DNA of 27,986 nt from a virus. The position numbers and the translations under genes are program-made. This document shows, piece after piece, positions 2,410 through 24,793 of this stretch. The stretch is taken from positions 1-27,986 of IMG/VR virus record IMGVR_UViG_3300020428_001196; one strand, written 5' to 3'. Below the pieces are notes generated by a model. The model was given only the letters and a program-made list of their open reading frames with translations. It did no database searches and was not told where the DNA came from. Positions within the stretch are counted from its first letter, which is position 1. Each line of letters opens with the position of its first letter.

Positions 2410-4067
2410 TGGCGTTACCATTACTAAGTTTCGGCGGGCGAATGCTAATGGGAGGCGGGAGAGGCGCCCTACGATTCGGCAAAGGTGCTGCAAAGGGTGT
2501 TGGAGTTGCTGGCCTTGGAGCAATTGGCGGTGGTGCAGCTGGTTTAGCTTCTCAAGGTGGCGGGTCTGGAATTACTATGGGTAACCAAGGCCCTCTTGCA
2601 GCTGCAAGTGGGGGTGCTGGATTTTCTTCTGCTGCCACACCAATGACTTCCGCAGCCGGAGCAACATCCGTATTATCAGATGCAGATAGTTCTGACCCTG
2701 TAGTAAGACAACTTCAAGACATAGAAAGAGTTCTGGTAGATATTAGGGTGAACACTTCCACTTTGGGTACTGGAACTGGTGCATCATCAGCAATGCCCAT
2801 GAACTCTAACGCAATGGAATCCATGTTTGGAAACAATCGACTTGCACCCAAAGCTGCTGGTATAGGATTGGCAGGGGCTGCTCTCTTAGGACTGGCTGGT
2901 TCAGACAAAAAGGAAGGCGAGATTGAGGGCAAAGAGGACAAAGAACCTGGCTGGCTAGAAAAAACTGAAAATGTTTTTGAAGAGTTTGGTGCAGAAATCA
3001 CTGGCGCAATGAAGGGTCTGCAAGAAGCATTAACAAAAAATACAACGGCACTAAAACCCCCAGTAAAACCTACACCAACAGCAAGACCATCAGTTGCGAC
3101 AAAACCTACTATCGATACAACAGGAAGACCATCAGGCGGGCCCCGACCTGTGTTTAATGCAGCTGCAAATCGATATCAAGACATGAATGATCCTAACCGG
3201 CGATTTATGAAGACTGCTGATGCGGAAAAAATTCTCAAGGGCAGTGCAAAACAAGCAACCGCTGAAGTGATTGAAGAAACGACAGAAGCGGGTGCTAGGA
3301 CGTTGGCGCAAAGAACAGGTGATGTGGTAAAAGAGGGAGCAAAAGGAACATTAAAAACAGCCGCTAAAGTAGTGGCCCCAGCAGCTGCTATATACGAGAC
3401 AGGGGCTGATTTCAAAGAAAATGAGGACAAACTTAAAGCTATTGAGGCAGCATTTAAACGAGGAGATATTTCACAAGAGGACTTCGATAAAGCGCAAGAT
3501 GCCATGTTTGCAAACCGAGCTGGGTCTGTTGGAAGAGGTACTGGTGCTTTTCTGGGTGGTCTGGGTGCGGCAAAAGCAACAGCTGCAGCTGCTTCCCCAA
3601 TGTTGGCCGCTGGGCCATTCGGCGTGTTGGCTTATGCATTAACAGTAATTGGCGCTGGTGCAACAGGTAGTATAGTAGGTTCTAAACTAGGTGACTCTGC
3701 CGCCACAAAGGCTACTGAAGAACTAATGAGTTTAGACCCCGAATCACAAGCAATCCTTGACAACCTTGCAGAAGCGTCAGGGTACACTCCAGAGCCGGGA
3801 CTCATAGACAAAGCAATTGATGCTGGTGCTTCCTTGGCAGATAGCGCCTCTCAATTAGTATCGGGTAGCGATGACATAGAAACTGCTACCACGGAAGCTT
3901 CAAAACAAGACCAACCAGCAACGGTCAATAATATTGTTGATAACAGTACAACGACAAATGGCGGCAATAATCAAGGCCAAATTATGCATATTGGGCCCAA
4001 TCAACTTGATGTCATTGAACAAGCGATGATTGGCAGAAACTTTAGAACTACACTAGGGCCGTACTAA
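2409..4067 (+). CDS. virion structural protein, possible tape-measure / baseplate hub protein
   Basis: 552 residues with a strong AAAGGGG ribosome-binding site. Composition is unusual: the first 100 residues are Gly/Ala/Ser-rich (repeated GGG and GA steps), there is an acidic helical stretch near 170-210, a Pro/Thr linker (PVKPTPTARPS), long Ala/Glu/Lys helices near 280-370, and a hydrophobic Gly/Ala segment near 380-430 (MLAAGPFGVLAYALTVIGAG) that could span a membrane. The C-terminus has Asn/Thr-rich low complexity followed by LDVIEQAMIGRNF. Length is close to T4 gp29 (590), the tape measure, and the gene follows a gp26-like/small-ORF pair as tape measures do in long-tailed phages; a membrane-active segment is also typical. 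I see no direct sequence match to gp29, so this stays a positional inference. It overlaps the convergent gene by 20 bases. Confidence 0.5.
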   Translation: MALPLLSFGGRMLMGGGRGALRFGKGAAKGVGVAGLGAIGGGAAGLASQGGGSGITMGNQGPLAAASGGAGFSSAATPMTSAAGATSVLSDADSSDPVVRQLQDIERVLVDIRVNTSTLGTGTGASSAMPMNSNAMESMFGNNRLAPKAAGIGLAGAALLGLAGSDKKEGEIEGKEDKEPGWLEKTENVFEEFGAEITGAMKGLQEALTKNTTALKPPVKPTPTARPSVATKPTIDTTGRPSGGPRPVFNAAANRYQDMNDPNRRFMKTADAEKILKGSAKQATAEVIEETTEAGARTLAQRTGDVVKEGAKGTLKTAAKVVAPAAAIYETGADFKENEDKLKAIEAAFKRGDISQEDFDKAQDAMFANRAGSVGRGTGAFLGGLGAAKATAAAASPMLAAGPFGVLAYALTVIGAGATGSIVGSKLGDSAATKATEELMSLDPESQAILDNLAEASGYTPEPGLIDKAIDAGASLADSASQLVSGSDDIETATTEASKQDQPATVNNIVDNSTTTNGGNNQGQIMHIGPNQLDVIEQAMIGRNFRTTLGPY

Positions 4068-5562
4068 TTTTCTTCTCAATGTAACTATCAATATGATTAA
4101 GAACGTGTTCTGTTCTTCTCTCCATGTGAATCTTATTAGCAAAGTCTTCCCACTTTACATCTGGGTCAATAAAAAACTTGTCATACATAAATGGGTCAAT
4201 AAGATTCTTTGCCTGATATTCACTAAACTCTTCAGCGCAAAACCGCATCACCTCGTGTAATGTGGTGTGTTCGTTTCTCCAGAATAGATAATATCCAGTA
4301 GACTTCACATAATCGTACAACCCTTTGTAATATGGATTCCTACTCTTTGACCAATCAATATCATCCAGTGGAATAATCTCACGGCGATATCCATAATCAA
4401 ACCACCTCTTATCAAACTCAGAATTGTGATTAAGAGTCTCGGTATTCCTTTCCAAATCTTTTATCATCAACACATTCATATGGTAACTGTTTTGATTCCA
4501 ATAGTTAGATAACCATTGGCCAGTTTCTCTCAGTGTATCGATGGTCTCATGTGGGAGGCCTGCTATAAGAGATATGTGTCCCTTATAGAACCCAGCATTC
4601 TTTCTAAAATATTCATCTACTTCCAACAGTCCTTCTTGTATTCTACCACTATCCATGCCTTTGCCAATGGACTTCGCAGATTCATGGTTCATACTTTCAA
4701 CACCATAGAAATGTGAAGTGATGCCCATCTTGATAAGGTTGTCCCAATCTTGTTTCTTACTGGTTATTAAATCAGCACGAATGTAAGCAGTCATCTTAGG
4801 TGTAAAGGGTAATTTTTCTATTGCATTGGCAAACTTCTCAATCTTCTGTGAACTATCATTGAATGTTTCATCTAAGACGATATAGTGTTCTGTACCAAAC
4901 AAATCATAGTTGCGTAACATCTCATCGTAGACACTTTCTGCCGTACGCGAGTAATCACCCTTGACACCAAGGACAGGAAAACTACAGAACTTACATTTGA
5001 ATTTACACCCACGAGCAAACTCAAGTAAAAGTATCTCTCTGGGTTGTATGAAGTCATCTTCTTGATATGAGACAGTCAAATCGTCCTGTGGGAACGATTT
5101 ATAATTAACGTAACAGTTTATCATACGATTCATATGAATCGGTTCTGGCCCCCCTCTAAAGTGGTCTAAGAGGGCTAATATCGCGTTTTCTCCGTATCCG
5201 TAGATATACCAATCCATCTCCAGTTCCATCATGGAATGGTTTTGACTACCAGCAACAAGGGGGATGTGAGGATACCTCTCCTTCAACCATTTACAGAGAG
5301 AAAGAACCGTGGGAGTATTTAGAAAGAACGTGGAACCAAATCCAAAGAATAAACACTTGTCTGTTACTTTAGATTCAATGTACGCTTTTAGTTGTTCTAT
5401 GTCCCACCTGTGAACATAGTCAACGACATCAATATCGTAATCATGTCTTCTAAGAAAAGTGGCAATTTTGTGACCACCAGATGACCTACGAATACTGACT
5501 AGAGATGGGTCAAACTCCAACCCCAGATCTTCAAGCTGTCCACCAAAAATTAAACCATGCAT
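4048..5562 (-). CDS. radical SAM enzyme with N-terminal B12-binding-like domain
   Basis: 504 residues. Residues 1-135 look like a Rossmann-type cobalamin-binding domain: alternating strands and helices, FGFGSTFFLN, IPLVAGSQN and YGYGENAI. The DxHxxG cobalamin motif is absent, so bound B12 is doubtful. The radical SAM cluster motif CKFKCKFC is at C186/C190/C193, preceded by LLLEFARGC as in B12-domain radical SAM proteins. A TIM-barrel region follows (LDETFND, AYIRADLI, YGVESMNHESAKSIGKG, ISLIAGLPHET). It differs from the five other radical SAM proteins here, having no N-terminal cysteine-rich block. It lies downstream of the gp32 terminator and has a CATAAATA octamer 32 bases before its ATG, suggesting late expression. 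Substrate unknown. Confidence 0.85.
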   Translation of the reverse strand: MHGLIFGGQLEDLGLEFDPSLVSIRRSSGGHKIATFLRRHDYDIDVVDYVHRWDIEQLKAYIESKVTDKCLFFGFGSTFFLNTPTVLSLCKWLKERYPHIPLVAGSQNHSMMELEMDWYIYGYGENAILALLDHFRGGPEPIHMNRMINCYVNYKSFPQDDLTVSYQEDDFIQPREILLLEFARGCKFKCKFCSFPVLGVKGDYSRTAESVYDEMLRNYDLFGTEHYIVLDETFNDSSQKIEKFANAIEKLPFTPKMTAYIRADLITSKKQDWDNLIKMGITSHFYGVESMNHESAKSIGKGMDSGRIQEGLLEVDEYFRKNAGFYKGHISLIAGLPHETIDTLRETGQWLSNYWNQNSYHMNVLMIKDLERNTETLNHNSEFDKRWFDYGYRREIIPLDDIDWSKSRNPYYKGLYDYVKSTGYYLFWRNEHTTLHEVMRFCAEEFSEYQAKNLIDPFMYDKFFIDPDVKWEDFANKIHMERRTEHVLNHIDSYIEKKISTALV

Positions 5563-6758: not shown

Positions 6759-7335
6759 ACACATCGTTAAGTGGGTTTACAACAGATTTCATATTATCTG
6801 TTACTTTTACAAAAGGGCGATATTTCTTGACTAGTAGAACAGTATCATCAAGTAAAATATCATCCAGTTGTTCGCACCAGTTATAAATCTTATCTAAAAT
6901 AACAACTGATTCAATACTTACTATATTACCAAAAAACAACCTAAATGTCAAGGGGTGTTCGCCATTTTTTTCAATAAAAGGATTGGTAATATTTTTGGTT
7001 TCCATTTCTAGAAGTATTTTAGATACATCTTGTTGGAACCTGTATTCTCTTTGATTCTTACGAACCGTCCATTCTTTATATCTACGGGCCGCATCTGTAT
7101 CGAATAGACCACCCCATCTTTCACCAGAGACAAAATTTGCCACTAGGAAATTAACTACCTCTTCTCTATCATAGTCTCTTGCCAACTTTTTGATAGAAAC
7201 CAAATCTTTTCTTTTTTTGTAGGTTTCTTCTTTTATTCTCACTTTGCCACGATACTTTATAATATCATAGTCTTTTTTAGTGAAGTGCAATTTGACTGCG
7301 AGGTATAATTTATAGACCTCAAATGGTTCAATCAT
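6754..7335 (-). CDS. 59: gp59 helicase loader
   Basis: 193 residues, against 217 in T4. gp59 binds fork DNA and gp32 and loads the gp41 replicative helicase. The N-terminal MIEPFEVYKLYLAVKLHF, followed by a basic segment (KYRGKVRIKEETYKKRKD) and FLVANFVSGERWGGLFD, matches what I know of the gp59 family; all-helical character is evident throughout. The start overlaps the gp33 stop (ATATGA) without a Shine-Dalgarno sequence, indicating translational coupling. The order gp33-gp59-gp32 is that of T4, which strongly supports all three calls. Confidence 0.93.
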   Translation of the reverse strand: MIEPFEVYKLYLAVKLHFTKKDYDIIKYRGKVRIKEETYKKRKDLVSIKKLARDYDREEVVNFLVANFVSGERWGGLFDTDAARRYKEWTVRKNQREYRFQQDVSKILLEMETKNITNPFIEKNGEHPLTFRLFFGNIVSIESVVILDKIYNWCEQLDDILLDDTVLLVKKYRPFVKVTDNMKSVVNPLNDVL

Positions 7336-7622
7336 ATTGGCAGTTTAGCGCCTTTCTTTTCTTTCAAGAGATTCAAGTCTTGTGCTTCAACCTTTATCTT
7401 TTCCCTCAGAGATGGGGTGAGAAGTTTTTTAATACTTTCAATCTCAATCTCTTTTCTGGTACAGTAATCCACGAGAACATCAATAAAACCAGCACCATCA
7501 TTAGCTTTCCTTTCTATGAATTGTGAAAATTCAGTAGAAGTAGAAAACTCCTTGGTTATCAAAAATTGGTCTGTCTGTTGTTCTTCAACAGGCATATCAT
7601 TATCTACTATCAATTTTGGCAT
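7332..7622 (-). CDS. 33: gp33 late-transcription co-activator
   Basis: 96 residues (T4: 112). gp33 binds the beta-flap of host RNA polymerase and, with gp55 and the sliding clamp gp45, activates late promoters of the TATAAATA type. Visible features: an acidic N-terminus, a helical middle (FSQFIERKANDGAGFIDVLVDYCTRKEIEIESIKKLL, split here by commas of family-typical spacing), SLREKIKVEAQDLNLL and a C-terminal KLPI, a hydrophobic tail like the clamp-binding end of the family. GAGGAAAG precedes the ATG; the first 23 bases overlap the epimerase gene. It coexists with several NATAAATA octamers in this window, consistent with a working T4-type late system. Confidence 0.9.
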   Translation of the reverse strand: MPKLIVDNDMPVEEQQTDQFLITKEFSTSTEFSQFIERKANDGAGFIDVLVDYCTRKEIEIESIKKLLTPSLREKIKVEAQDLNLLKEKKGAKLPI

Positions 7623-8511
7623 GTCTTTCCTCTATTTCCTTAAATTCTTGCTCAGTTTTTTTCATTGTCTTTTCCAAAAGAAAATTATTCTTCCACTCTT
7701 TACAGTATTGAACAACATCATACTCTGGTTCGATGTAGGGCTCATCACAAATAGTTCTATCTGCCTCACCCCTTCTATCAAATTCGTAAATCACAGGATG
7801 GTCAAAAGCATCAGCGATTTCACTTATACTCCTTGGATCGCCAGAACCCAAATGAATGTCTTGTGGTTTTCTCTTCTCTGTGAGTAGTTTCATAATGCCA
7901 TCTATAACATCAAAAACGTGTGTAAAGTCTCGTTCTTTTTTCCCGCTACCAAATATACGAAGCGGTTCGTTTTTTTCTATGCATTTTTTAAAAGACCTAA
8001 TCACCGTACTATATTGGGAGTAATCCGCTTCTCTAGGGCCATACACGTTATAAAAATGCAACACATGATACTTAATACCATACAGTTTTCTATACAATTC
8101 TAATATATCATCACAAACATCTTTACTAAAAGTGTAAGGATTTTGCATCCTATCAATAAACTGTGTACTAGAAGAGGCAGCAAAAAACAGTGGTATATCC
8201 ATTCTCCTAGCCCATTCACAGACGGCGGTGGTAGAACTAATGTTATTAGATATCGTGTGGTATGGGTGTTCTTGTGACAACCTAATTCTAGGAGTGGCAG
8301 CTAAATGAAAAATAGCATCAAAAGTTCCAGAGGGAATAACCTTCTGAACCTCTTGATGTAAATATTTCACACGTTTATGTTCACAGAGATGTTTGCCTCT
8401 CGACATATCATCAACTACCAAAACATTCTGGTCATGGAGAACTAAAGCCTCAACTAAGTGAGACCCTATGAATCCGCATCCACCAGTAACTATAAAATTG
8501 TGTGTTGACAC
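7600..8511 (-). CDS. NAD-dependent sugar epimerase/dehydratase (extended SDR)
   Basis: 303 residues starting at GTG 8511, which shares its G with the stop of the upstream hydrolase (TAGTG), so translation is coupled. Rossmann nucleotide-binding motif TGGCGFIG at 9-16, the D35/R39 region of NAD-binding SDRs, an HLAATPR strand at 69-75, an SSS catalytic Ser region near 113-116, and the YxxxK pair Y126/K130. The C-terminal part has DFTHVFDVIDGI, a typical substrate-domain motif of UDP-sugar epimerases/dehydratases. A nucleotide sugar is the likely substrate; the exact reaction cannot be read. It sits between the wall hydrolase and gp33, apart from the main sugar island, and resembles an accessory insertion in the core module. 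Confidence 0.88.
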   Translation of the reverse strand: MSTHNFIVTGGCGFIGSHLVEALVLHDQNVLVVDDMSRGKHLCEHKRVKYLHQEVQKVIPSGTFDAIFHLAATPRIRLSQEHPYHTISNNISSTTAVCEWARRMDIPLFFAASSSTQFIDRMQNPYTFSKDVCDDILELYRKLYGIKYHVLHFYNVYGPREADYSQYSTVIRSFKKCIEKNEPLRIFGSGKKERDFTHVFDVIDGIMKLLTEKRKPQDIHLGSGDPRSISEIADAFDHPVIYEFDRRGEADRTICDEPYIEPEYDVVQYCKEWKNNFLLEKTMKKTEQEFKEIEERHAKIDSR

Positions 8512-9041
8512 TAACGCATCCTGTAGAATATGTGTTTATCGTGTATCACCGCAACTGCCATGTGGTTAGACCAATCTGGTTTGACATAATTTGCATGATA
8601 GAATGTCGAACCGCCTGTGTTATCTTTAATATCACCCAACAACACCCTCATAGCGACTTCGGTTATTGCACGATAAGAACGCCAATCGTGTATCTCATCA
8701 GACTTGCCATCACAATACCAAGAGAACTGGCATTTATATCTGACAGGATGCCCACCCCACACTTTTGCTTGATGAACAACGTCACAAATAGTATTCGGGA
8801 AGTTTTTGTGTTCAACTCTGTTCAAGGTGACATGCGCTACCGCAATCTGCCCTTCAGTGTCCTCACCACGAGCTTCAAAATAAATATTCTTGGATAAACA
8901 AGCAACATCACGCTCATCCAAAATTACTCTTTTTTCAGCCTCTACCACAACTTCTTGTAGATGTGGCATCGGATCACTAGTCGTTGGGACTAGTAATAAC
9001 AAACTTCCAATTACATAAGTTAAAATCTCTGGGACATCCAT
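8511..9041 (-). CDS. SleB-type cell wall hydrolase, membrane-anchored
   Basis: 176 residues from ATG 9041, chosen because AAGGAG lies 7 bases upstream; longer in-frame starts would run into the tmRNA. Residues 5-21 (EILTYVIGSLLLLVPTT) form an uncleaved signal anchor or signal peptide. The domain of the Hydrolase_2/SleB family follows: KNIYFEARGE (54-60, with the conserved Glu), QIAVAHVTLNRV, FPNTICDVV and CQFSWYCDGK, ending with GGSTFYHANYVKPDW. Family members cut peptidoglycan (lytic transglycosylase or amidase-type activity). In a phage it could act as an endolysin reaching the periplasm by the Sec route, which the N-terminal segment would allow. No holin is seen nearby. Stop overlaps the epimerase GTG. 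Confidence 0.9.
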   Translation of the reverse strand: MDVPEILTYVIGSLLLLVPTTSDPMPHLQEVVVEAEKRVILDERDVACLSKNIYFEARGEDTEGQIAVAHVTLNRVEHKNFPNTICDVVHQAKVWGGHPVRYKCQFSWYCDGKSDEIHDWRSYRAITEVAMRVLLGDIKDNTGGSTFYHANYVKPDWSNHMAVAVIHDKHIFYRMR

Positions 9042-9060
9042 TCGATTTCTCCTTTCTATT

Positions 9061-9310
9061 GTAAGAGGCCCGTTGGATAACAAGGTGGAACCCATACCCC
9101 GCCTAACTTAAGCAGCTAGGAGATAAACGTCATCGTTTGCGTTTATATTGGTGGCTCTTTGCCAGTCAATCAGTCTCGGTTTGTCCTATACAATCGCAGT
9201 CGAACCTGTTCACCCCCATCATAAAACCACCCACAATGGATGGCCTTATGGTGGAGGTGGGGAGAATCGCACTCCCGTCCTACAACCTTTCAGTCCACTT
9301 CAACGACCGA
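9061..9310 (-). ncRNA. ssrA: circularly permuted (two-piece) tmRNA gene
   Basis: The acceptor piece comes first: T-arm GGGAG-TGCGATT-CTCCC, acceptor strand CACCTCC, then A and an encoded CCA ending at 9249. After a 31-base spacer the coding piece starts at 9217 with GGGGGTG, which pairs with CACCTCC over seven positions including the G3-U70 wobble that marks alanine tRNAs and tmRNA. GAACAGGTTCGACT follows, as at tmRNA 5' ends. The tag frame begins with the resume codon GCA at 9140 and reads ANDDVYLLAA before TAA at 9108-9110, with the helix CCTAGC/GTTAGG around the stop. ACAA(A)CC in the coding piece can pair with GGTTGT of the acceptor piece. The 3' end (near 9061-9090) and 5' end are approximate. 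It rescues stalled ribosomes and tags products for proteolysis. Confidence 0.93.
9108..9140 (-). other. tmRNA tag-peptide reading frame (ANDDVYLLAA)
   Basis: GCA AAC GAT GAC GTT TAT CTC CTA GCT GCT TAA. With the charged Ala the added tag would be AANDDVYLLAA. The start AND and the end LAA are the parts recognised by SspB-like adaptors and by ClpX in known tags, so this tag should direct degradation. Confidence 0.92.
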
Positions 9311-9315
9311 TTATG

Positions 9316-9323
9316 TATTTATA
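9316..9323 (-). promoter_or_regulatory. T4-type late promoter octamer driving the tmRNA
   Basis: Perfect TATAAATA on the minus strand in the gap between the exonuclease stop (9346) and the tmRNA acceptor piece. The predicted start falls at about 9310, matching the beginning of the acceptor-piece structure. Confidence 0.7.
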
Positions 9324-9345
9324 ATACCACACTAGGCAGCAGATG

Positions 9346-10002
9346 TCAATGATGATCTTCATACAAATCTCTACATTCCAGCAAATAATCTGTGTAATTA
9401 TCACGTTTTTCAACAAATAGTTGCGGTTCCTCATCTTGGACACCAATTATAATTACAGTTTGGTCAACAGGAACACCTGTTCTTTCTTCAAACATTACAG
9501 CATAAGCAGAACATTGAGCGAAATAATTCTTAATGTATGATTTTCTTTTGAGTTTAGCGGAAGTTTTGAAATCTATAATCGACAGTCTACCATCAAATTC
9601 AGCGATGCAGTCAACTTGACCAGCCAATCTAAGGTGTTCACTGAACAAGAATTGTTCTAAACAGTGAACATTATCAATCCTATCGATGTAGGTCTTCATC
9701 CGATTGAAGATATTTTCTTCAACAAAGGTAATTTTATCGGTGTTAGACTCTTCATTGTTGATGTAGTCTTCGCAGAGGGTGTGAACTTTAGTCCCACGAA
9801 CAGAAGCCTGGCGGCTTATTTTGTTCGCTGTCTGTTCTCCGACCTTCTTTCGCCATGCTTTTATGGCGGGTTTGGTCTTATATCCCAAAACGGTGGTGAC
9901 AGAGGGGTATCTGTCACCGTTCTCCGTTGTGTAGACTCTTTTCCCCTCGTGAATCTCCCTTTTTAGGTTAGGGAATTCGTGTTTTTCAACATGTGTAAAC
10001 AT
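9346..10002 (-). CDS. PD-(D/E)XK exonuclease, RecB-like
   Basis: 218 residues. The nuclease core is clear: SVRGTKVHTLCEDYI (helix with the conserved H/E positions, 67-81), FLFSEHLRLAGQVDCIAEFDGRL with D131, then IIDFKTS with D144 and K146, and a QxxxY motif, Q163/Y167, in AQCSAYAVMFEERTG. The order D-DxK-QxxxY is that of RecB-family/Cas4-like exonucleases. It probably degrades or processes DNA ends in replication or recombination. Similar small exonucleases are common in T4-like marine phages. A weak AAAAGTAG lies before the ATG; a consensus sigma-70 promoter (10032-10061) sits directly upstream, so this gene likely belongs to an early or middle transcript. Confidence 0.88.
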   Translation of the reverse strand: MFTHVEKHEFPNLKREIHEGKRVYTTENGDRYPSVTTVLGYKTKPAIKAWRKKVGEQTANKISRQASVRGTKVHTLCEDYINNEESNTDKITFVEENIFNRMKTYIDRIDNVHCLEQFLFSEHLRLAGQVDCIAEFDGRLSIIDFKTSAKLKRKSYIKNYFAQCSAYAVMFEERTGVPVDQTVIIIGVQDEEPQLFVEKRDNYTDYLLECRDLYEDHH

Positions 10003-14934: not shown

Positions 14935-16093
14935 TTCTACGCCTAGTGTTGCCGTAGTGATACACCTCGTGATTTGAACTTTTATGAGTCCGCCATGGGT
15001 CTATAATCATTCTCTTCTTTTTTAATTTTTCCAAAGCAGATAAATCATCACATTCGTGAACCTTAAATACTACATCTGATTTATTCAATTCTGCCAATTC
15101 TCCACCAAGTTCTAACACATAGTATTGTACCAACAGACTATAGCTACCATTCGTATATTGGACTTTCGGTTTGTATGAATCGGAAGTGAAGTGTATTTTA
15201 TTACCAAACTCTAAAGCTTTCTCGGCGAGGTTTTTTGCTTGAGCCTCGCGTGATGTCATAACTGCATCGAACAAGTCATATCCAAGTTTCAATTCTTTCG
15301 CCATGTACCTAAGAGCAATATTATCTCTTGGGTGACATGCACCACCATCTCCCATACCAGCCTTCATGTAAGAAGGCCCCATAATTCTTTGGGTACTGTC
15401 CTTCAGTGCATCTGTAACGACATCGACATCAATATAACCTTGTTTTTCTGATACGTCTTGTATCATGTTAACAAGACCAATCTTGGTGCTAATGAATGTG
15501 TTGTAAAATACTTTGATACATTCGCACTCATCCCAAGTCCCTATGACATATCTAGGTTTGTTTTCCATGATACCTTCATAAAAATATTGCAACTCAAAAG
15601 CTTCTGCTGACTGTTCACCATCAAAAGTTCCAATCATTACCATCTCAGGATTTACCATATCCCAAGCAACAGTTCCCATGGCAATTAAATAAGGATTATA
15701 TACAAACCTAGTATTCTGAATATCTGGTGCGATATTATATCTGACGGTGCCAGGCAATACGGTGCTAATGAGAACAAGTATCTGATCACGAGTCATGTGT
15801 TTATCACACTCTGCGATGACATCGGTAACAATTTTATAATCAAAATCTCTTGGTTCTAAATGAGAAGTGGGTAATTTCCCATCATATAACTCATCATGTG
15901 GAGTAGGAACAGCTACGAATACAATGTCACTTTCCTTACACACTTCCTCAATACTGAGAACAATTTTTACACTATCACTCTGAACTCTTTTCTTATCGTA
16001 TCCAACAACATCATGTCCCTTTTGTGATATAACTTCGGCACAAGGCATACCTAATTTGCCCAAACCTATAAATCCAATATTAGCGCTTTTCAT
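14927..16093 (-). CDS. UDP-glucose/GDP-mannose dehydrogenase family protein
   Basis: 388 residues (family usually 390-450). NAD-binding motif GFIGLGKLG at 7-15 with VVGYDKK. VAVPTPHDE, STVLPGTV and NPYLIAMGTVAWDMVNPE correspond to the known nucleotide-sugar dehydrogenase blocks. The active-site helix DECECIKVFYNTFISTKIGLVNM keeps Lys194 and Asn198, and the catalytic cysteine is present, C253 in GMGDGGACHPRDN (canonical GGxCxPKD). The C-terminal UDP-binding domain is shorter and divergent. Product would be a UDP- or GDP-uronic acid, a substrate for the glycosyltransferases here. Overlaps the next gene by 14 bases. Confidence 0.9.
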   Translation of the reverse strand: MKSANIGFIGLGKLGMPCAEVISQKGHDVVGYDKKRVQSDSVKIVLSIEEVCKESDIVFVAVPTPHDELYDGKLPTSHLEPRDFDYKIVTDVIAECDKHMTRDQILVLISTVLPGTVRYNIAPDIQNTRFVYNPYLIAMGTVAWDMVNPEMVMIGTFDGEQSAEAFELQYFYEGIMENKPRYVIGTWDECECIKVFYNTFISTKIGLVNMIQDVSEKQGYIDVDVVTDALKDSTQRIMGPSYMKAGMGDGGACHPRDNIALRYMAKELKLGYDLFDAVMTSREAQAKNLAEKALEFGNKIHFTSDSYKPKVQYTNGSYSLLVQYYVLELGGELAELNKSDVVFKVHECDDLSALEKLKKKRMIIDPWRTHKSSNHEVYHYGNTRRRSD

Positions 16094-17120
16094 ATAATTC
16101 CTCTATCCATCTTTCATTATCTGCAAATAAACCCAATACTCTATCTCTATTATGATAGAGTCTACTCTTTAAAGATTCATATAACTTCTCAACCTCTTCT
16201 AAGTTGAGTTCTGCAATGTTATTCAAATCTTCGACTATGTTTTCACATCTCTTCTCATAATCTGGTTCGTCTTTGTTTGAATTTGGAAACACATCTTCAA
16301 ACGTATCAACACCCCAAGTTCTCAATTTTCTATAGATATTCTCATCCCCTATTATAACATAAGGGCGGAGACCAATCAAGGGTTTGAAAGTCTTTTCACT
16401 TATAAACACATCACTGTGGGTGGTTGACTCGGTGACAACATTCACAAAGTGACTGTTCCAGTGAGCGGGGTCTCCCAAAGAGATAATATCATTTGAAATG
16501 TGTTCGTTGGATACCTTTTCCCAATCTTCAAGCATTTTTACATAAACTGGATGCCTCTCTGACAAAATTCTGGGGTGTTCAAAGTTGTATCTATTATCAG
16601 ATTCTATGACTGATATATTGCCTACCCTGTCTAAACCATCATTGAATATCTTATTGAGAAGATAAGCTCTATGGTCATTGCACTTTCTGTTCAGTGACAT
16701 AAAGTGATACTTAAAATCTGGTTTTGTTAGATATTCATCATTAAAGAAGTAATCACGATAAAACTTGATAAACGATATCCAAAAACTAAAGTAGTGGCCA
16801 TCTCCAGTGTTCCCTATGTGTTCCGTATCATAGTGGTCTGATAAAAACTTGTGCATCTCTTTTGTTTGGTCTGTGCATTGTGTGTTTTCCCAATCCATCC
16901 CAGACAACAACCACACCTTCTCATCTGAAATTCTGCCAGTCCATTGTTTCAATCTGCTACAATAACCCTCATCACTAAACCAAGTAGTATTAATAACAAT
17001 ATGTTTGTCTGGTACATGTGCCATCAGTTTATTTGCAAAACGAGACTCAAATTCAGTTATCAAACTACTACCTGTTCTGAGCGGGACACCTACACCATTT
17101 CTTGACCAATAATTTTTCAT
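16080..17120 (-). CDS. glycosyltransferase-like protein (phage EKT family)
   Basis: 346 residues. A first half of weak similarity to anything I know (WLLSGMDWENTQ) is followed by YHFMSLNRKCNDHRAYLLNKI (138-157), then VNVVTESTTHSDVFISEKTFKPLIGLRPYVIIGDE (226-260) and LRTWGVDTFEDVFP. The ES...F(I/V)(S/T)EK..KPL....P block recalls the nucleotide-sugar-binding C-terminal part of GT10-like and GT-B enzymes. The same two blocks recur in the 628-residue protein and, in part, in the 328-residue protein of this window, so they form one phage family. Its overlap with both neighbours (14 and 4 bases) places it in the island operon beside the dehydrogenase. Sugar and acceptor are not readable. Confidence 0.7.
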   Translation of the reverse strand: MKNYWSRNGVGVPLRTGSSLITEFESRFANKLMAHVPDKHIVINTTWFSDEGYCSRLKQWTGRISDEKVWLLSGMDWENTQCTDQTKEMHKFLSDHYDTEHIGNTGDGHYFSFWISFIKFYRDYFFNDEYLTKPDFKYHFMSLNRKCNDHRAYLLNKIFNDGLDRVGNISVIESDNRYNFEHPRILSERHPVYVKMLEDWEKVSNEHISNDIISLGDPAHWNSHFVNVVTESTTHSDVFISEKTFKPLIGLRPYVIIGDENIYRKLRTWGVDTFEDVFPNSNKDEPDYEKRCENIVEDLNNIAELNLEEVEKLYESLKSRLYHNRDRVLGLFADNERWIEELYEKR

Positions 17121-19003
17121 AGTCCGTATGTAGAGGGTCTTACTTGTTTTAAAACATCTAACAACCTATCCCTCCTCCCATCAGTGTCATTTTTAAATTT
17201 TTCGTGATTGTATTTTATAACAGGTAATGCTTCATTGTATCTCTGTTTCTTTTCACTGTCAGTTAGTGCGTGCCATATCTCAAGATTTCTTACAAGAGCG
17301 CCAAACCTCTCTTTTGGGTCTTTTAGTGTGTCGTATCTCTCATCAAACATCATTGGATAAGTTTTATACCCAATAGACCTAAGATACTCCAGAGTTCCAG
17401 CAGAACCCATAACCATGAATGGGTGACAATAGGCCAAAGGTTTGTAAATTTTTTCTGTGAGTTGTATACATTCATTGTCAACAGCAAACAAAGTTTCCGA
17501 TACCAAACTAAAATAGGTTTCCTCATAGTGTTCGACACTCAAAATTCTATCGTCAGCATCGACCATTTCAGAATTCTCGTTTTCTAATTCAATGACATTA
17601 TGTTCATGCCAAAAATCCCAAAAATGTTTTTTCTGTGACCTAAAAGAAAAAATATCAGTAGAGTCATGTGTGACATCGTTCAACCAGTGGTTGACCTCCT
17701 TTATCTTGTTGGGGTCTATATCTCTAAAAATATCATTTTTCCAGTGATAAGTTCCATCGTCATCTATTAGTTGGTCTCGTGCAAGAAAACTAATTCTAGA
17801 ATTAGTATTATCATATCCCAATCTAAAAAGTTCAGAAACCATGGCAGACCTATGGGGTCTTACTCTAGCATTGAGACAAATTAAATCTCTAGTTTTATTT
17901 TCTGCGTTAGGTATACCCTTCAACATCTCCACATGATGAAGCATCTGAGTATTACCATTGATATTAATCTGAGACATTCTTCCTTTCTGCATACTCAAAT
18001 GTCTTGGGGGTATAGGTAGAGGTTTTAATTTTTCTTGGTATTCTTTTGGCATGTTATGAATTTCTATAAAACACTCTGGCCATCTAGAATAGTTATTCAC
18101 ACCAAAAATATCTTTAGTCCACTCTGCTTGTCTCCACTCTCCATTGAACTTTTCGTTTTTGGGATTAAATCTGACACACGTTCTGTTAGTCCATTCTTGA
18201 AAATATAATTGATTGAAGAAATCATATCCCACCACGGCGGTAAACTTAGGATACTCACCAACAGAAGTTTTTTCCTTCTCTGCGTGATACCTATCATAAT
18301 TTATTTCAGCATTTAAATCACCATAGACCATCATAAAAATTCCATTTTGCAGTTCTTCATTTATAATACTCTGGTGAAGAACATCCATCCACTCTTCCAT
18401 CTGTTTCATATTCGATTGTTGTTTATAACTAAACCCCTCGTGTGGAAACCAAAACACACAAGCCATTTGTCTTCTGCGAATAAGGTCTTTTACTTTGGGA
18501 GACATCTTAGCCAAGAACTGATTAAGATAGGAATGAACTTGAGTTACTTCTATGAAATAAAGATTGTCTGTTTTTCGATATTCGTCTTCATCCCAACTGG
18601 CGATTGGCCTAATTTTATATGGGGCGCCAACAATATTATAATTATGAAGAATCTCAGAAGTGCCACCAAATTTATTCAGCCACTTTTCATCGGACTTAGC
18701 ATCTTCTGGGTTGACAACATCATTAGCGTATCCAGACAAATTCTTTTGAGGCCACACAGTTGGATTCTCATAATAATCTCTAGTAGACCCCGCTATATCA
18801 TCATACCACAAAACAGGGGCATGAACGTCAACAAGTTTTAGTTCTTCTTCTTTTGGTGTCGCTAGAATTTTTTTAAGGTATAGAACTTCTTCAAGAACTT
18901 GTTCCAAGGCCGTCCTCTGATTCCGCTTGAGGTATTCAACTTCTTCAAGAACTTGTTCTAATAATATCTTGACGGTTCCAAGGCCGTCCTCTGATTCCGC
19001 CAT
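17117..19003 (-). CDS. large glycosyltransferase-like protein with N-terminal coiled-coil repeat
   Basis: 628 residues. Residues 14-45 carry two copies of an 18-residue unit (LLEQVLEEVEYLK and ALEQVLEEVLYLK), a likely coiled coil encoded by a recent DNA duplication. The region 60-340 is unfamiliar (WFPHEGF at 185-191, PKFTAVVGYDFFNQLYF). The C-terminal part has LICLNARVRPHR (374-385) and ETLFAVDNECIQLTEKIYKPLAYCHPFMVMG (503-533) with YLRSIGYKTYPMMFDERYD, the two blocks shared with the 346- and 328-residue proteins. The start ATG has no clear Shine-Dalgarno site and lies 59 bases inside the end of the preceding radical SAM gene, in a different frame. I infer a two-part transferase, oligomerised through the coil. 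Confidence 0.7.
   Translation of the reverse strand: MAESEDGLGTVKILLEQVLEEVEYLKRNQRTALEQVLEEVLYLKKILATPKEEELKLVDVHAPVLWYDDIAGSTRDYYENPTVWPQKNLSGYANDVVNPEDAKSDEKWLNKFGGTSEILHNYNIVGAPYKIRPIASWDEDEYRKTDNLYFIEVTQVHSYLNQFLAKMSPKVKDLIRRRQMACVFWFPHEGFSYKQQSNMKQMEEWMDVLHQSIINEELQNGIFMMVYGDLNAEINYDRYHAEKEKTSVGEYPKFTAVVGYDFFNQLYFQEWTNRTCVRFNPKNEKFNGEWRQAEWTKDIFGVNNYSRWPECFIEIHNMPKEYQEKLKPLPIPPRHLSMQKGRMSQININGNTQMLHHVEMLKGIPNAENKTRDLICLNARVRPHRSAMVSELFRLGYDNTNSRISFLARDQLIDDDGTYHWKNDIFRDIDPNKIKEVNHWLNDVTHDSTDIFSFRSQKKHFWDFWHEHNVIELENENSEMVDADDRILSVEHYEETYFSLVSETLFAVDNECIQLTEKIYKPLAYCHPFMVMGSAGTLEYLRSIGYKTYPMMFDERYDTLKDPKERFGALVRNLEIWHALTDSEKKQRYNEALPVIKYNHEKFKNDTDGRRDRLLDVLKQVRPSTYGL
18876..19000. repeat. 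two interleaved direct repeats
   Basis: A perfect 26-base repeat occurs at 18901-18926 and 18975-19000 (offset 74, not a multiple of three). A near-perfect 31-base repeat occurs at 18876-18906 and 18930-18960 (offset 54, three mismatches), giving the 18-residue coiled-coil repeat. The 26-base copies are read in different frames. They lie across the overlap between the radical SAM gene end and the transferase start. Confidence 0.95.
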
Positions 19004-20111
19004 TATCTAATATCTCGTACCATTCTGGGAAAGTCTCTTCAAAATTTTCATCCCTAATTTTATCGAATTTCTCAGTCACATTAATAAAACCAAGATCTAA
19101 ACTATGCATCTCCGCATCTTGCATCATAAAGTTTATGATTGATTCAACATCAGAAGTATTTATAATCTTTTTTTGAACCTTCAATTTTACCTCATCTGGC
19201 ATATTGCGAATACAATATTGGCCTGGATAATGAAGTATGTTAAAATACACATGCGTATCATTAAATTTATCCATAAACTCTGGGATATCATACACATTAA
19301 ATATACTCACTGTGTGACATATTTGAATATGTAAGTATTCCTTAGATTTGAAGTAATTAAAGTTATCCCAAACTTCATCCCACTTCGCACCATGTCTTAT
19401 ATATTCAAATTTCTTGAACAACCCATCGATACTGAACATCACTTCACAAAATTTGAACTCTTTCCACAAGTCAAAAACATCTTCTGGTGGTCTATGAGTT
19501 CCATTTGTATTATAGTGTATTGATATATTTTTTGCATGGCCAGATTCAACAACCTTCCTCAACAACTCAAAGTGTTGTTCAATCATAAACGGTTCGCCGC
19601 CAGTAAAGTCCATTTGTTCTACTGTCGGTATTATTTCAAACAACTCATCCCAAATGGTTGGATTCTTTTTAATCCAAAGAGCGTCCTTATCATCAAGAAC
19701 TCTGCCATATGCTTTTATTTCATCACCCTTCCAACTGGAAGAGTTTACACTACCACAACTACGACATTTTAGATTACATAATGTTCCAAACTTCAAGTCC
19801 ATATAAACAGGATTTTCAATAGGGTTCCCCACTCTATCTTTATATGCATCAAATCTTTCTCTATCCTGTAGACGTTTAGACTTGTATCCGGCTTTTTCAT
19901 TCTGCCAACACATGGCACACCCTGACGGTTTTTTACCATCAAGGAAGTCTTGTCTTAACTTTTGATATTTCTCTCCATGCCAGATATCAAGGAAACTCTC
20001 TTCTTTCAAGTTTCCCATTGGTTCACCAGTGTATAAACAACAGGGGTTTGCAGTACCCGCCGTTGAAAATTCACTGTGAACCCAAGGCAATAAACAAATA
20101 GTATCACTCAT
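18945..20111 (-). CDS. radical SAM enzyme with N-terminal SPASM-like block (copy A)
   Basis: 388 residues. N-terminal cysteine block: C6 in CLLPWVH, C24/C25 in NPCC, GNLKEESFLDIW, then C65/C68 in CAMCW. This is a SPASM-like auxiliary-cluster pattern (CxxPW...CC...GNL...IW...CxxC), here before the radical SAM domain rather than after it. Radical SAM motif CNLKCRSC, C112/C116/C119; SAM-binding GGEPF at 171-175; then SIHYNTNGT and FSIDGLFKKFEYIRHGAKWDEV. Ends with KIRDENFEETFPEW. Such enzymes cleave S-adenosylmethionine to start radical chemistry on peptides, sugars or metabolites. First of four consecutive paralogues, overlapping its neighbours by 59 and 8 bases. Confidence 0.93.
   Translation of the reverse strand: MSDTICLLPWVHSEFSTAGTANPCCLYTGEPMGNLKEESFLDIWHGEKYQKLRQDFLDGKKPSGCAMCWQNEKAGYKSKRLQDRERFDAYKDRVGNPIENPVYMDLKFGTLCNLKCRSCGSVNSSSWKGDEIKAYGRVLDDKDALWIKKNPTIWDELFEIIPTVEQMDFTGGEPFMIEQHFELLRKVVESGHAKNISIHYNTNGTHRPPEDVFDLWKEFKFCEVMFSIDGLFKKFEYIRHGAKWDEVWDNFNYFKSKEYLHIQICHTVSIFNVYDIPEFMDKFNDTHVYFNILHYPGQYCIRNMPDEVKLKVQKKIINTSDVESIINFMMQDAEMHSLDLGFINVTEKFDKIRDENFEETFPEWYEILDNGGIRGRPWNRQDIIRTSS
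19157..19164 (-). promoter_or_regulatory. TATAAATA octamer inside radical SAM copy A, possible late promoter
   Basis: Perfect TATAAATA on the minus strand, about 147 bases upstream of the large glycosyltransferase start. It is within coding sequence, where ATA AAT codons can create it by chance. Confidence 0.3.
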
Positions 20112-21357
20112 CTATAATCTCTTGCCAATAATACATGTCACGCAACTCATCAAATACTTCAACAAAATTTTCGTCCCTGAGTTTGTCTAACATTTGCATC
20201 CTGTAAACAAACTCATTCAAGAACCATTCCGTGTCCTCTTTGAAATCTTGTTCCATATGAGTCTTTAAGGACTTAAATCCTTGACTAGCATTTGGAGCTC
20301 TATTTCCACCATCAAGGAAATCTATATGTTGTTGATACTTTTCAGACAACACCCTTTTATATTTTTTTGGCAATATTCTCATATCAAGATGCATGGGTTC
20401 AGTAACAATGTTCACAAAAAACTTATCATAATCATCAATCAACCCTAGTCTAACTAACTCGTGGTGAAATGGTATTATATGAAAAGAATTCTGTATACTG
20501 GTGGTGCAAGAGACATAAAAGTGTGCGTGTGAGTTTTTCTGTTTCATTTTGATTCGGTTTTCAACAAACTGATCCCACTTAAATCCACTGCGAATAAATT
20601 CACCCTGTTCGTGCATACCATCAACACTACAACCAATCTCAATGTTTTTAAATTTGGGCCAAAAATCTAATACGTTCAAATCTTTGTATCTCATTTCACT
20701 GAAATTTGTATTATATCTAATCAGAACATGATGCATACCCAACCTGTCAAGTTCTTTCAATATGCGATAATGTTCTTCCATGATAAGAGGTTCGCCACCA
20801 GCAAAGTATATTTCTTCAACATATTGAAAGTGTGGCAAAACCTGTTCCCACAAGTCATAGTTTCTTTCTTTTGGTATATCATCTGGCAAAAATGATCTCC
20901 CTGTTTCAATGAGAGCAATTTTCTTCGTATCACCATACCAACCACTACTCAACTGCGGCCCACAACTACGGCATTTAAAGTTACATATGTTTGAGAACCT
21001 AAAGTCCCAATATGGCAATTTAAATTCTGGAACAGAACCATCGGGTTGAGTGGTAGCAATTATGTCCTGATAATGACTCCAACTTTTGTTTGCTCTATGA
21101 CGCATAGAGTGACCACCATCATCCTCTTGCTTCCAACACCTAATGCATGATTCGGGTTTCTTGCCGTCAAGCATTTCTAAGCGTAGTTTTTTCTGTTGTT
21201 CTCCGTTGAAAATCTCTTCTAATGTATTCTCATTTAAGTTGCCAGAGATATGTTCCATTGGAGTTAAACAACATGGATATGTGTTACCGTTTGGCCATGT
21301 GTGCAAGTGTACCCACGGCAACATGCACATACTTGGTGATGAACTTGGTCTACTCAT
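20104..21357 (-). CDS. radical SAM enzyme with N-terminal SPASM-like block (copy B)
   Basis: 417 residues, from ATG 21357 overlapping copy C by 8 bases. Cysteine block: C11 (CMLPWVHLHTWPNG), C29/C30 (YPCC), GNLNENTLEEIF, C71/C74 (CIRCW). Radical SAM motif CNFKCRSC at C125/C129/C132; AGGEPL in the SAM-binding strand; IRYNTNFSEM, IGCSVDGMHEQGEFIRSGFKWDQF; ends KLRDENFVEVFDEL. It shares its layout with copy A but carries distinct inserts (FLPDDIPKERNYDLWEQVLPHFQ) and so is probably not a redundant duplicate. Confidence 0.92.
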   Translation of the reverse strand: MSRPSSSPSMCMLPWVHLHTWPNGNTYPCCLTPMEHISGNLNENTLEEIFNGEQQKKLRLEMLDGKKPESCIRCWKQEDDGGHSMRHRANKSWSHYQDIIATTQPDGSVPEFKLPYWDFRFSNICNFKCRSCGPQLSSGWYGDTKKIALIETGRSFLPDDIPKERNYDLWEQVLPHFQYVEEIYFAGGEPLIMEEHYRILKELDRLGMHHVLIRYNTNFSEMRYKDLNVLDFWPKFKNIEIGCSVDGMHEQGEFIRSGFKWDQFVENRIKMKQKNSHAHFYVSCTTSIQNSFHIIPFHHELVRLGLIDDYDKFFVNIVTEPMHLDMRILPKKYKRVLSEKYQQHIDFLDGGNRAPNASQGFKSLKTHMEQDFKEDTEWFLNEFVYRMQMLDKLRDENFVEVFDELRDMYYWQEIIDE

Positions 21358-22618
21358 ACTTTTTTATCAACTCATACAACTCTGGAAAATACTCCTCAAA
21401 TTTTTTCTTGGTGCTTACATCCAAAGCTCTAGTTTTTTGGAAAAAAGTTTCCATGTTTGATTTTTGATAACTGCCCCACTGACCTTCACCACCGTCAAAA
21501 TAATTTTTTATATCATTGTATCCCTGATATCCCTCCAATCTTTTTACTATGATATCTTGCACTTCCTGTGGTAATATCCTACAATCAAAATGCTCTGGGT
21601 CAGTAACAAAGTTATGACTTATATGTAACGAGTCATCTTCGGCGGGATGTCCTACAAGGGGGACTTTATCTTTAAAGAAATCATAGAACTCTGGTATGTA
21701 GTAAACATTGTATGTGGATACAGTTTGAAGTATATTGTAGTCAATGTTTTTATATCGAGCAGACATACTCATCATCCAATCAAGGAATGACAAAACCTTA
21801 GGCCACTTAGTGAATGTTCTTATATATTCATTTCTATCACCAACACAATCGATAGATAACATAAACTGTATGTGTTTAAAATTTTTCCAAACTTCCTCAA
21901 ATTTTTTATTGATAGTGGTGCAGTTGGTAGAGTATACAATTTGAACATTTTTAGCTAAGTCTCTTTCAACAAGGGTAGCAAGAAAGTCCATGTGTTTATC
22001 GACAATGAATGGTTCACCACCGTTAATATACAACACCTTGAGTTTATCACACCGTGTTATAAGTTTGTCCCAAAATCCTTGGTCTAAAGGCCAATTGAAA
22101 TTCTTTTGGGTCAACATCTCTGGGAGAGATGGTCTCTCAGGATAAATTGTGTCCCAATCCTTTAACCACCTAGAAGACGAGTAAGGATTGCAAGTGCGAC
22201 ACTGAACATTACAGTGATTGCCAAGACGTAGTTCCACAAATTCATAGTTGACCTCCTTTAAAGTTCCATCCTTATTAGTGATACTCATTGCGTGGTCAAT
22301 GTCCATAGGAACACGGCGATTTTCATAATACCTTTTACTTTTCATGCCGGCACTTTCTAAGTCCCAACACTTACGGCATTCTTTGGGTTTCTGTCCCTGT
22401 AACATAGCAAGTCGAACTTTACTGAAACTATCAGAGTTGGTTATTTCAGCAAAGTCATCAACATTCTGTAGAGTCACCAGTTTTCTAGTTAATCCTTCAT
22501 CTCCATTAAACGCCTGCGACATTCCTTGGTGTTGCTCAGACTCACAACAAAGTGTGCATACACCGTGTGGATGAGTCGCTAAATGATTCCAAGGTAACGA
22601 ACAGAATGTTTCACTCAT
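21350..22618 (-). CDS. radical SAM enzyme with N-terminal SPASM-like block (copy C)
   Basis: 422 residues. C6 (CSLPWNHLATHPHG), C24/C25 (LCC), a longer insert of about 30 residues than in A and B, then C81/C84 (CRKCW). Radical SAM motif CNVQCRTC at C136/C140/C143; NGGEPF; YSTNCT; MLSIDCVGDRNEYIRTFTKWPKV. The C-terminal FDGGEGQWGSYQKSN and EEYFPELYELI close the fold as in A and B. Starts in the 4-base overlap ATGA with copy D's stop, so translation is coupled. Substrate unknown. Confidence 0.92.
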   Translation of the reverse strand: MSETFCSLPWNHLATHPHGVCTLCCESEQHQGMSQAFNGDEGLTRKLVTLQNVDDFAEITNSDSFSKVRLAMLQGQKPKECRKCWDLESAGMKSKRYYENRRVPMDIDHAMSITNKDGTLKEVNYEFVELRLGNHCNVQCRTCNPYSSSRWLKDWDTIYPERPSLPEMLTQKNFNWPLDQGFWDKLITRCDKLKVLYINGGEPFIVDKHMDFLATLVERDLAKNVQIVYSTNCTTINKKFEEVWKNFKHIQFMLSIDCVGDRNEYIRTFTKWPKVLSFLDWMMSMSARYKNIDYNILQTVSTYNVYYIPEFYDFFKDKVPLVGHPAEDDSLHISHNFVTDPEHFDCRILPQEVQDIIVKRLEGYQGYNDIKNYFDGGEGQWGSYQKSNMETFFQKTRALDVSTKKKFEEYFPELYELIKKYE

Positions 22619-23922
22619 ATTTTATTCCACCACTCTAGAGCATTTCCGTAGAGTGTATCCTCAAAAGTTAATTTTGGTTTTCTTACTTTGTCTAAGAATT
22701 CTTGAAATTCTTTTCCACGTTTGAGAGCATCACTATATGTCTCTGGCCATTCTTCATCGAATGATGGCCTATTTATTAAGTTTTTCAATGAGTCAATATA
22801 TACTTTATTTTTCCAAGTTCTCTTTTCTTCAAAGTAAGATATCATCTCTTCGCATAAAGGTTTTGATACATGCTTCGGCAAACACATAGGACTCATCACT
22901 ACACTGGGGTCAAATGCAAAGGTGAATTTGAAATACGATTTCACATCAAGTTCCCATGCCACATCAAACAAGTCTTTCAAGTGAAGTAAGCCTGGTGTTG
23001 TAAGGGTGACATCAAACACCATTGCATCATCGCCAAACTGGTCTATCAGAAACATACCCGATTTAAAGTTCTCTATCCACTCATCCCACTTCAAACCATC
23101 TCTAATAAACTCTCCCACATCATAAGCACCATCAATACTAGCACATATGTTTACACTTTTAAAATGTGGTAGCATGTCCCAAAGATTATAATTTTTATAT
23201 TTGACCCTACTCAGATTTGTGTTATAACGAATGGTAACATTCTTTGCGTGGCCGTTATCGACAAGTTGTTGCATGACAGTCCAATGTCGTTCAAACATCA
23301 ACGGTTCGCCACCTACCCAATAAATCTCTTCTATAATTTTATCATCAACGGCACGCTGTAATTCTTCCTCCAAAACCTCGTTCTGAAAATTTTTAATCTT
23401 CATTCTGGTTGTGGGTTCTAACCAAGGTTCTTGTTTTACATCAATAAGATTGTATTTCTTTTTTTCTGTCTCCCAACTAGAAGACAACTGTTCACCACAC
23501 ATACGGCACTTGAAGTTACAAAGATTAGATATTCGGTAATCATAAGAAATAGGCATCGGTTCATAATGTCCGTCCTCTCTTGTATTAGCAATTATATCAT
23601 CTACCTTGTGTGGAAACAAAGTCTCTGTAAAATATTTCCTGTATGTGTGTAAGTTTAGTATCTGGTCATTACATACATCACACTGAGAAAGTTTTTCACC
23701 AGACAACATTCTCTTGCGAATGTCTTTCATGTAGTCGCTATTCCAATGTTCTTTTAGAGACTTTGGTTCAAAATTACCCCGAGCACTTCCACTATCAATG
23801 TACTGTTTTTGAAATGATGCTTCCTCTCTGCTCGCACAACAAAGTCTACGTTCTCCTTGAGGTGAAACATATGTGTGAGTCCACGGAGCTGTACAAAAGT
23901 AGGGTCTATCTTTTGGCGACAT
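22615..23922 (-). CDS. radical SAM enzyme with N-terminal SPASM-like block (copy D)
   Basis: 435 residues from ATG 23922 (MSPKDRPYFC), chosen because GGAG lies 5 bases upstream and the frame's longer extension to 23985 has none and would overlap the epimerase by 80 bases. C10 (CTAPWTHTYVSPQG), C28/C29 (LCC), GNFEPKSLKEHW, C81/C84 as CDVCN, where the usual Trp after CxxC is Asn. Radical SAM motif CNFKCRMC at C135/C139/C142; VGGEPL; IRYNTNLS; ASIDGAYDVGEFIRDGLKWDEW. The C-terminal part ends SYFEEKR and EEWPETYSDALKRG. Overlaps the epimerase stop by 17 bases. Confidence 0.92.
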   Translation of the reverse strand: MSPKDRPYFCTAPWTHTYVSPQGERRLCCASREEASFQKQYIDSGSARGNFEPKSLKEHWNSDYMKDIRKRMLSGEKLSQCDVCNDQILNLHTYRKYFTETLFPHKVDDIIANTREDGHYEPMPISYDYRISNLCNFKCRMCGEQLSSSWETEKKKYNLIDVKQEPWLEPTTRMKIKNFQNEVLEEELQRAVDDKIIEEIYWVGGEPLMFERHWTVMQQLVDNGHAKNVTIRYNTNLSRVKYKNYNLWDMLPHFKSVNICASIDGAYDVGEFIRDGLKWDEWIENFKSGMFLIDQFGDDAMVFDVTLTTPGLLHLKDLFDVAWELDVKSYFKFTFAFDPSVVMSPMCLPKHVSKPLCEEMISYFEEKRTWKNKVYIDSLKNLINRPSFDEEWPETYSDALKRGKEFQEFLDKVRKPKLTFEDTLYGNALEWWNKI

Positions 23923-24793
23923 TTCTCCACCACGAGATTGTTCTATCCAAACCATCTGACAAAGATACTTTGGGTTTCCATCCAAGGGTATCTTCTAACA
24001 ACTTGCCGCTACTGTTCAACCAGTAGATTTCGCCAGGCCTGTGGGGTTTTGTATCCCAATTTATTTTTCCTTGCCACTGGAGTTTTTGAGCAATGATGTC
24101 AACGTAGTCTCTAATCTTAATCGGTTCATCTGGGCCTAACGTGAATATCTTGTGGTTACACTTTTCTGGATTGTTGATAATTTTTGTCCATGCTTCTAAC
24201 ATATCATCGATGTATATAAAATTACGATACGGTTCAGCATATCCCAAATTTATTTCTTCTGGGTTCTTTATCATCTGTGATATGATTTGTTCGGTGACAA
24301 AAAAGTCGTTGTCCTTCCTACCATAACAATTGGTTTGCCTTATAATAGTATATGGTAAATTGTAAGACCTACCAGCATACTCCAAATACTTCTCACACCC
24401 ATATTTTGCAACAGCATATGGTGCGTTTGGGTATGGGGTGGTTAGATGGTCACATACTGTGCCTTCTGGTTGTTGCCCATAGACCTCCATCGTACTAGCA
24501 AAAACAAAGTTCTTAAAATTGGGAATCTCTCTTGATATTTCAATAAGGTTTACAGTACCGACATAATTAATTTCACTGAATGTTATCTGTTCATAAAAAC
24601 TTTGTTCTACTTCTGTTCTCGCTCCAAGATGGACGATAATGTCTGGTTGTATTCCCCTTACTTCAAAACGAACAGCAGCATGGTTTCGTAAATCACTGTT
24701 GAGATGATAGATTTGATGTTGACCAGACTGAGGTAGTAGGGGTGAAAGATGTGACCCGATAAACCCAGATGATCCTGTAATTAGTATTTTCAT
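23906..24793 (-). CDS. NAD-dependent epimerase/dehydratase (extended SDR)
   Basis: 295 residues. TGSSGFIG at 6-13, HLGARTEVEQSF (a family signature), FASTMEVYG with the Ser/Thr catalytic position, PYAVAKYGCEK with Y126/K130, and RQTNCYGR followed by RNFIYIDDM, all typical for GDP-mannose dehydratase/UDP-glucose 4-epimerase relatives. The product is a modified nucleotide sugar. The next gene upstream is an HxGH nucleotidyltransferase, which could activate the sugar that this enzyme uses. Starts within the 4-base overlap ATGA. Confidence 0.93.
   Translation of the reverse strand: MKILITGSSGFIGSHLSPLLPQSGQHQIYHLNSDLRNHAAVRFEVRGIQPDIIVHLGARTEVEQSFYEQITFSEINYVGTVNLIEISREIPNFKNFVFASTMEVYGQQPEGTVCDHLTTPYPNAPYAVAKYGCEKYLEYAGRSYNLPYTIIRQTNCYGRKDNDFFVTEQIISQMIKNPEEINLGYAEPYRNFIYIDDMLEAWTKIINNPEKCNHKIFTLGPDEPIKIRDYVDIIAQKLQWQGKINWDTKPHRPGEIYWLNSSGKLLEDTLGWKPKVSLSDGLDRTISWWRNVAKR

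Follow-up and report, generated by a model that had tools for sequence, protein, structure and literature searches.

Permuted tmRNAs encoded by phages have already been catalogued. Methylophilales phage Melnitz and Pelagibacter phage Mosig carry known examples, and a survey of 18,146 phage genomes classed 53 tmRNAs as two-piece (PMC9004378); the current database holds 79 unique phage tmRNA sequences, all gene forms counted (PMC11915505). In the published accounts covered here, expression of these RNAs during infection goes no further than prediction. A first-pass annotation of the viral contig studied here described a phage-encoded, circularly permuted tmRNA with its own T4-type late promoter, under a title that overstated the novelty of the gene, since permuted phage tmRNAs had been published (PMC9004378). 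What is new at this locus is the fixed position of the tmRNA in every close relative examined, together with a composite promoter.

A permuted tmRNA gene in a T4-like phage contig

We analysed the whole of an IMG/VR viral contig of 27,986 bases, hereafter the window. It comes from a T4-like phage whose group includes known marine phages. T4-like genes in the window include those for a gp32-like single-strand DNA-binding protein, a gp59-like helicase loader, a gp33-like late co-activator and PhoH, as well as an exonuclease, a tail tube and a baseplate hub protein.

On the minus strand, positions 9057-9311 are a complete, circularly permuted two-piece tmRNA gene (Table 1), and all of the elements that the first-pass annotation had described were found where it placed them. 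The Rfam covariance model RF04321 (tmRNA_permuted), which has a gathering score of 47, matches over its full length (1-213) with 101.5 bits and an E value of 5e-19, and ARAGORN also calls a permuted tmRNA with the tag ANDDVYLLAA. Within the older Rfam clan the beta_tmRNA model (RF01850) scores best, but its 81.5 bits fall just below its own gathering score of 84, and the window tmRNA is therefore not classed as a beta tmRNA. As in other permuted tmRNAs, the acceptor piece lies 5' of the coding piece and the acceptor strands are complementary, CACCTCC pairing with GGGGGTG in seven pairs that include a G-U wobble. The G3-U70 alanine identity pair and an encoded CCA are present, and the short tag frame has the hydrophobic end in -AA and the stop codon of a tmRNA. 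The folding z-score is -4.36, and none of 200 shuffled sequences folded as well. The pseudoknots and the 3' end of the coding piece are placed only roughly.

Table 1. Features of the tmRNA locus and its surroundings, by position in the window.
Feature	Position	Strand	Remarks
Acceptor piece	9249..9311	-	5' edge approximate; Rfam match starts at 9308
T-arm GGGAG-TGCGATT-CTCCC	9276-9260	-	in acceptor piece
Acceptor strand CACCTCC	9259-9253	-	in acceptor piece; followed by discriminator A
Encoded CCA	9251-9249	-	in acceptor piece
Spacer, 31 nt	9218..9248	-	between acceptor and coding pieces
Coding piece	9057..9217	-	3' end approximate; beta_tmRNA model ends at 9060
5' acceptor strand GGGGGTG	9217-9211	-	first bases of coding piece
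Tag reading frame GCA...TAA, ANDDVYLLAA	9108..9140	-	from ARAGORN and alignment of relatives
-35 hexamer TTGACA (sigma-70-type)	9344..9349	-	overlaps exonuclease stop codon; TTGACA or TTGACT in relatives, 17-nt spacing
-10 hexamer TATTAT, extended TG	9321..9326	-	17 nt from -35
T4-type late promoter element TATAAATA	9316..9323	-	overlaps -10
Exonuclease (phrog_298)	9346..10002	-	immediately upstream of tmRNA; used as synteny anchor
Cell-wall hydrolase (Pfam Hydrolase_2; PHROG endolysin)	8511..9041	-	AAGGAG ribosome site directly after tmRNA
gp33-like late-promoter transcription co-activator (phrog_254)	7332..7622	-	two genes beyond hydrolase

Elsewhere in the window, several radical-SAM enzymes are encoded at 18945-23985, 26442-27950 and 4048-5562 (minus), with SPASM domains in two of those tested; related phage contigs have 6-9 radical-SAM matches each. 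The run adjoins genes of sugar metabolism and large ORFs for which Pfam gives no match. ORFs of 346, 628 and 328 aa without a Pfam match, at 16080-19003 and 25466-26452 (minus), all lie inside this glycan/radical-SAM cluster, and the first two have no PHROG match either.

Conserved position and base pairing among relatives

To keep the tmRNA sequence from biasing the choice of relatives, these were collected by way of the adjacent exonuclease. In all 34 viral relatives whose exonuclease is at least 73% identical, a permuted tmRNA lies directly after the exonuclease gene. Five of these had appeared to lack a tmRNA, but they were ARAGORN misses, and the covariance model matches all five. The tmRNA also occupies the same place in a clade at about 53% identity (L105-L111, L041), and three clades that have different tags agree in the order exonuclease, tmRNA, cell-wall hydrolase, epimerase, gp33, gp59. 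No terminator-like site was found between the tmRNA and the hydrolase gene, and the two are therefore probably co-transcribed.

To follow the pairing we used 58 phage loci, 55 of them anchored on the exonuclease and three from named phage records; another 72 loci, fetched by a tmRNA DNA pattern and thus selected for one version of the stem, were left out as evidence on acceptor pairing. The acceptor stem takes five sequence forms among the 58 loci, every one fully paired, and the third pair is G-U (G3-U70, the alanine-charging signal) in all of them. The acceptor strands of the two separate RNA pieces thus covary among the phage relatives. Together with the covariance-model hit, this goes against both of the outcomes by which the first-pass annotation would have been refuted. 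T-stem variants likewise all pair, barring one mis-registered case, and the resume region is conserved in the alignment of relatives.

The 31-nt spacer is predicted to fold into a hairpin that prolongs the acceptor stem, and end-to-end pairing exceeds that of shuffled versions in 39 of 56 distinct phage spacers. This conserved hairpin is suggestive of a precursor from which two mature RNAs would be cut. Some members of the sister clade (L078, L085, L096, L102) have a 120-nt spacer that seemingly contains a small open frame behind AAAGGAG, which resembles a ribosome site.

Overlapping promoter elements at the tmRNA

A promoter feature that had been missed in the first pass lies at 9349-9321, where TTGACA-17-TATTAT matches the sigma-70 consensus at 11 of 12 positions, with the hexamers at a distance inside the 16-18 nt of such promoters and with an extended -10 that overlaps TATAAATA. 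The start predicted from TATAAATA, at about 9310-9313, lies at the acceptor piece's 5' edge. These promoter calls are consensus matches supported by conservation. Two further sigma-70 matches in the window, both perfect (12/12, minus), lie at 10061-10032 upstream of the exonuclease gene and at 6660-6632 upstream of the gp32-like gene.

Taken by itself, the window would allow TATAAATA to be a chance occurrence, with 4 copies against 2.45 expected, and the significance of the element comes only from comparison with relatives, which rules chance out. In a close relative of 161 kb, 29 copies occur, of which 15 stand 8-60 nt ahead of an ORF; such placements average 2.3 over the 56 permutations of the motif's letters, and no other permutation exceeds 5. 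Besides the copy at the tmRNA, one other copy there has a sigma-70 match of 11/12 or better nearby. In Melnitz the motif precedes tail, baseplate, fibre, sheath and other genes of the structural region, with 20 copies in about 90 kb, whereas the first 39 kb have 2. The annotation of Melnitz includes a late sigma factor, and the window has its gp33-like gene. The element at the start of the tmRNA gene is thus of a type enriched upstream of the late genes of this phage group. Prediction of middle and late promoters did not succeed in a study of pelagimyophages (PMC7029224); both Melnitz and a relative of the window phage yield a detectable late-promoter motif.

In the window clade and its sister clade, both elements are kept in position, with a sigma-70 match of 10-11/12 and TATAAATA 34-36 nt before the T-arm. 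TATAAT runs into TATAAATA in L086 and L089, where the two elements can be told apart; a third clade has only CTAAATA at the promoter site; and the L105-L111 clade and L117/L119 have a late-type motif without a good -35. Among 30 divergent phage tmRNA clusters, a late-type motif lies 33-39 nt before the T-arm in 12 and elsewhere in 2, a sigma-70 match of at least 10/12 is found in 12, and both elements are found in 8. The motif is absent from that position in 18 of the 30, and the arrangement is therefore not general to phage tmRNAs.

Because both elements are conserved, we consider that an early and a late promoter probably overlap at the tmRNA, and that expression is probably both early and late. 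The T4-type late promoter of the first-pass annotation therefore stands as a late motif of this phage group, but it was an incomplete account of a site that also holds a conserved sigma-70 promoter. Expression from the late promoter only, as that annotation had it, is unlikely: it fits TATAAATA at a conserved position and the late-type motifs that lack a good -35 in L105-L111 and L117/L119, but leaves unexplained why a near-consensus sigma-70 promoter (10-11/12) that overlaps the late motif is conserved in the window and sister clades at an exact 17-nt spacing while the spacer sequence varies, and why TATAAT and TATAAATA are distinguishable in L086/L089. Expression from the sigma-70 promoter only, with TATAAATA as just part of the -10 region, is similarly improbable. 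The 11/12 match speaks for it, and the tmRNA of Melnitz was put behind an early promoter by its authors (PMC9004378), but the AAATA that follows TATTAT is not needed by sigma-70 and is nevertheless invariant in these clades, the late motif survives the loss of the -35, and elsewhere in these phages TATAAATA is the promoter motif of late genes.

Tag and SmpB

Phage tags mostly start with A-N/E-D/N and nearly all end in -AA. ANDDVYLLAA starts with A-N-D and ends in -LAA, and so ordinary tagging for degradation would be its simplest reading; the suggestion that the phage uses a tag of its own to alter proteolysis finds no support in tags that retain ordinary degron ends. A search of 14 related phage records, whose control worked, turned up no SmpB, and the SmpB used is therefore presumably that of the host.

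An interfering tmRNA, which would titrate SmpB or carry an altered tag so that tagged proteins escape degradation, has precedents in a tag-less phage tmRNA (DS6A) and in a similar molecule that inhibits tmRNA (PMC4131195, PMC11915505), and the window tag does end in LLAA and not in the commoner ALAA. We regard such a decoy as very unlikely, because the tag frame is intact and the resume region conserved, and because the tags of relatives mostly begin with A-N/E-D/N and end in -AA.

Proposed function

The best explanation for the gene, pairing, tag frame, conserved synteny and both promoter motifs seen here appears to be a functional permuted tmRNA of a T4-like phage, with a composite promoter and processing by the host, that rescues ribosomes with ordinary tagging; we give this joint reading a probability of roughly 0.8. 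The composite promoter, whose -10 region would be common to a host sigma-70 promoter and a phage late promoter, would give rise to one precursor. From this the tRNA-processing enzymes of the host would cut out the hairpin spacer, and the acceptor and coding pieces would be joined by base pairing. The phage RNA would be charged with alanine by way of G3-U70 and would bind host SmpB, ribosomes stalled on broken mRNAs would be rescued throughout infection, and unfinished proteins would be tagged for ordinary host proteolysis. From tmRNA biology we infer that the phage would benefit through the recycling of ribosomes. More tentatively, at somewhat less than even odds, the dedicated tmRNA may be a core gene of the phage group that, from its composite early-plus-late promoter and in one operon with the hydrolase and gp33, provides the phage with trans-translation of its own all through infection.

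The tmRNA genes of bacteria are common integration sites. They are discussed as such in PMC9004378, but the idea of a non-functional captured host fragment or integration-site relic can be dismissed, as the gene is complete, compensatory pairing is kept across large divergence, T4-like phages conserve its position and promoters, and the window genes examined include no integrase.

With its fixed position, its presence in every close relative examined and its double promoter, the purpose of a phage tmRNA becomes testable, and the cultured relatives Melnitz and Mosig offer systems for testing phage-controlled ribosome rescue.

Relationship to known tmRNAs

The nearest tmRNAs are those of the window's own phage clade (86-99% identical), and bacterial tmRNAs, among the sample fetched, reach only about 53%. 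On the phylogenetic tree, whose deep branches are weak, the window tmRNA falls with marine phage tmRNAs and apart from the beta group. A betaproteobacterial origin, prompted by the best older Rfam model, is thus supported neither by identity nor by the tree. Replacement by a foreign tmRNA in the window clade was considered because its coding piece is only about 0.61 identical to that of the sister clade, while identity in the exonuclease is 0.76, but common descent was not rejected by the tree (AU p = 0.395 and 0.22), and replacement is not claimed. When genome contigs were scanned for the T-loop variant, the matches were mainly one-piece tmRNAs from Clostridia and Elusimicrobia, which indicates that a TGCRA loop is not unusual, and nothing more. 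Two other phage tmRNAs, L137 and L146 (group L133-L153; tags ANDERYALAA, ANDAFYGEERLAA), cluster with tmRNAs of betaproteobacterial type, a hint of such hosts for those phages.

Among described systems, Melnitz (MZ577095, L002), a marine T4-like phage recorded as Kyanoviridae, likewise has a permuted two-piece tmRNA, preceded by a TTGACA-17-TATAAATA promoter and located upstream of the late transcription co-activator (PMC9004378). Its tmRNA differs from that of the window in its tag (ANDNYVPVDYALAA), its 142-nt spacer and its immediate neighbours; no radical-SAM genes were detected in Melnitz, and the glutamine riboswitch reported there was not found in this window. Mosig (MT647606, L003) also has a permuted tmRNA, flanked by a PD-(D/E)XK nuclease region and by gp33; as in the window, gp59 and gp32 come after gp33. 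Unlike the window's, the Mosig tmRNA has the tag GEDNFALAA, shows no matching promoter pair and is not among the closest matches of the window tmRNA. The permuted tmRNAs of betaproteobacteria (RF01850; L278, L345) share a CACCTCC-type acceptor stem (L278), a 10-residue tag of the ANDERFALAA kind and the best older Rfam model with the window tmRNA, but are only about 53% identical to it and separate in the tree. Those of alphaproteobacteria (RF01849) differ in acceptor stem and tag length but share the two-piece permuted architecture, and RF01849 is the best clan model for the sister-clade phages, whereas for the window the beta model gives the higher score.
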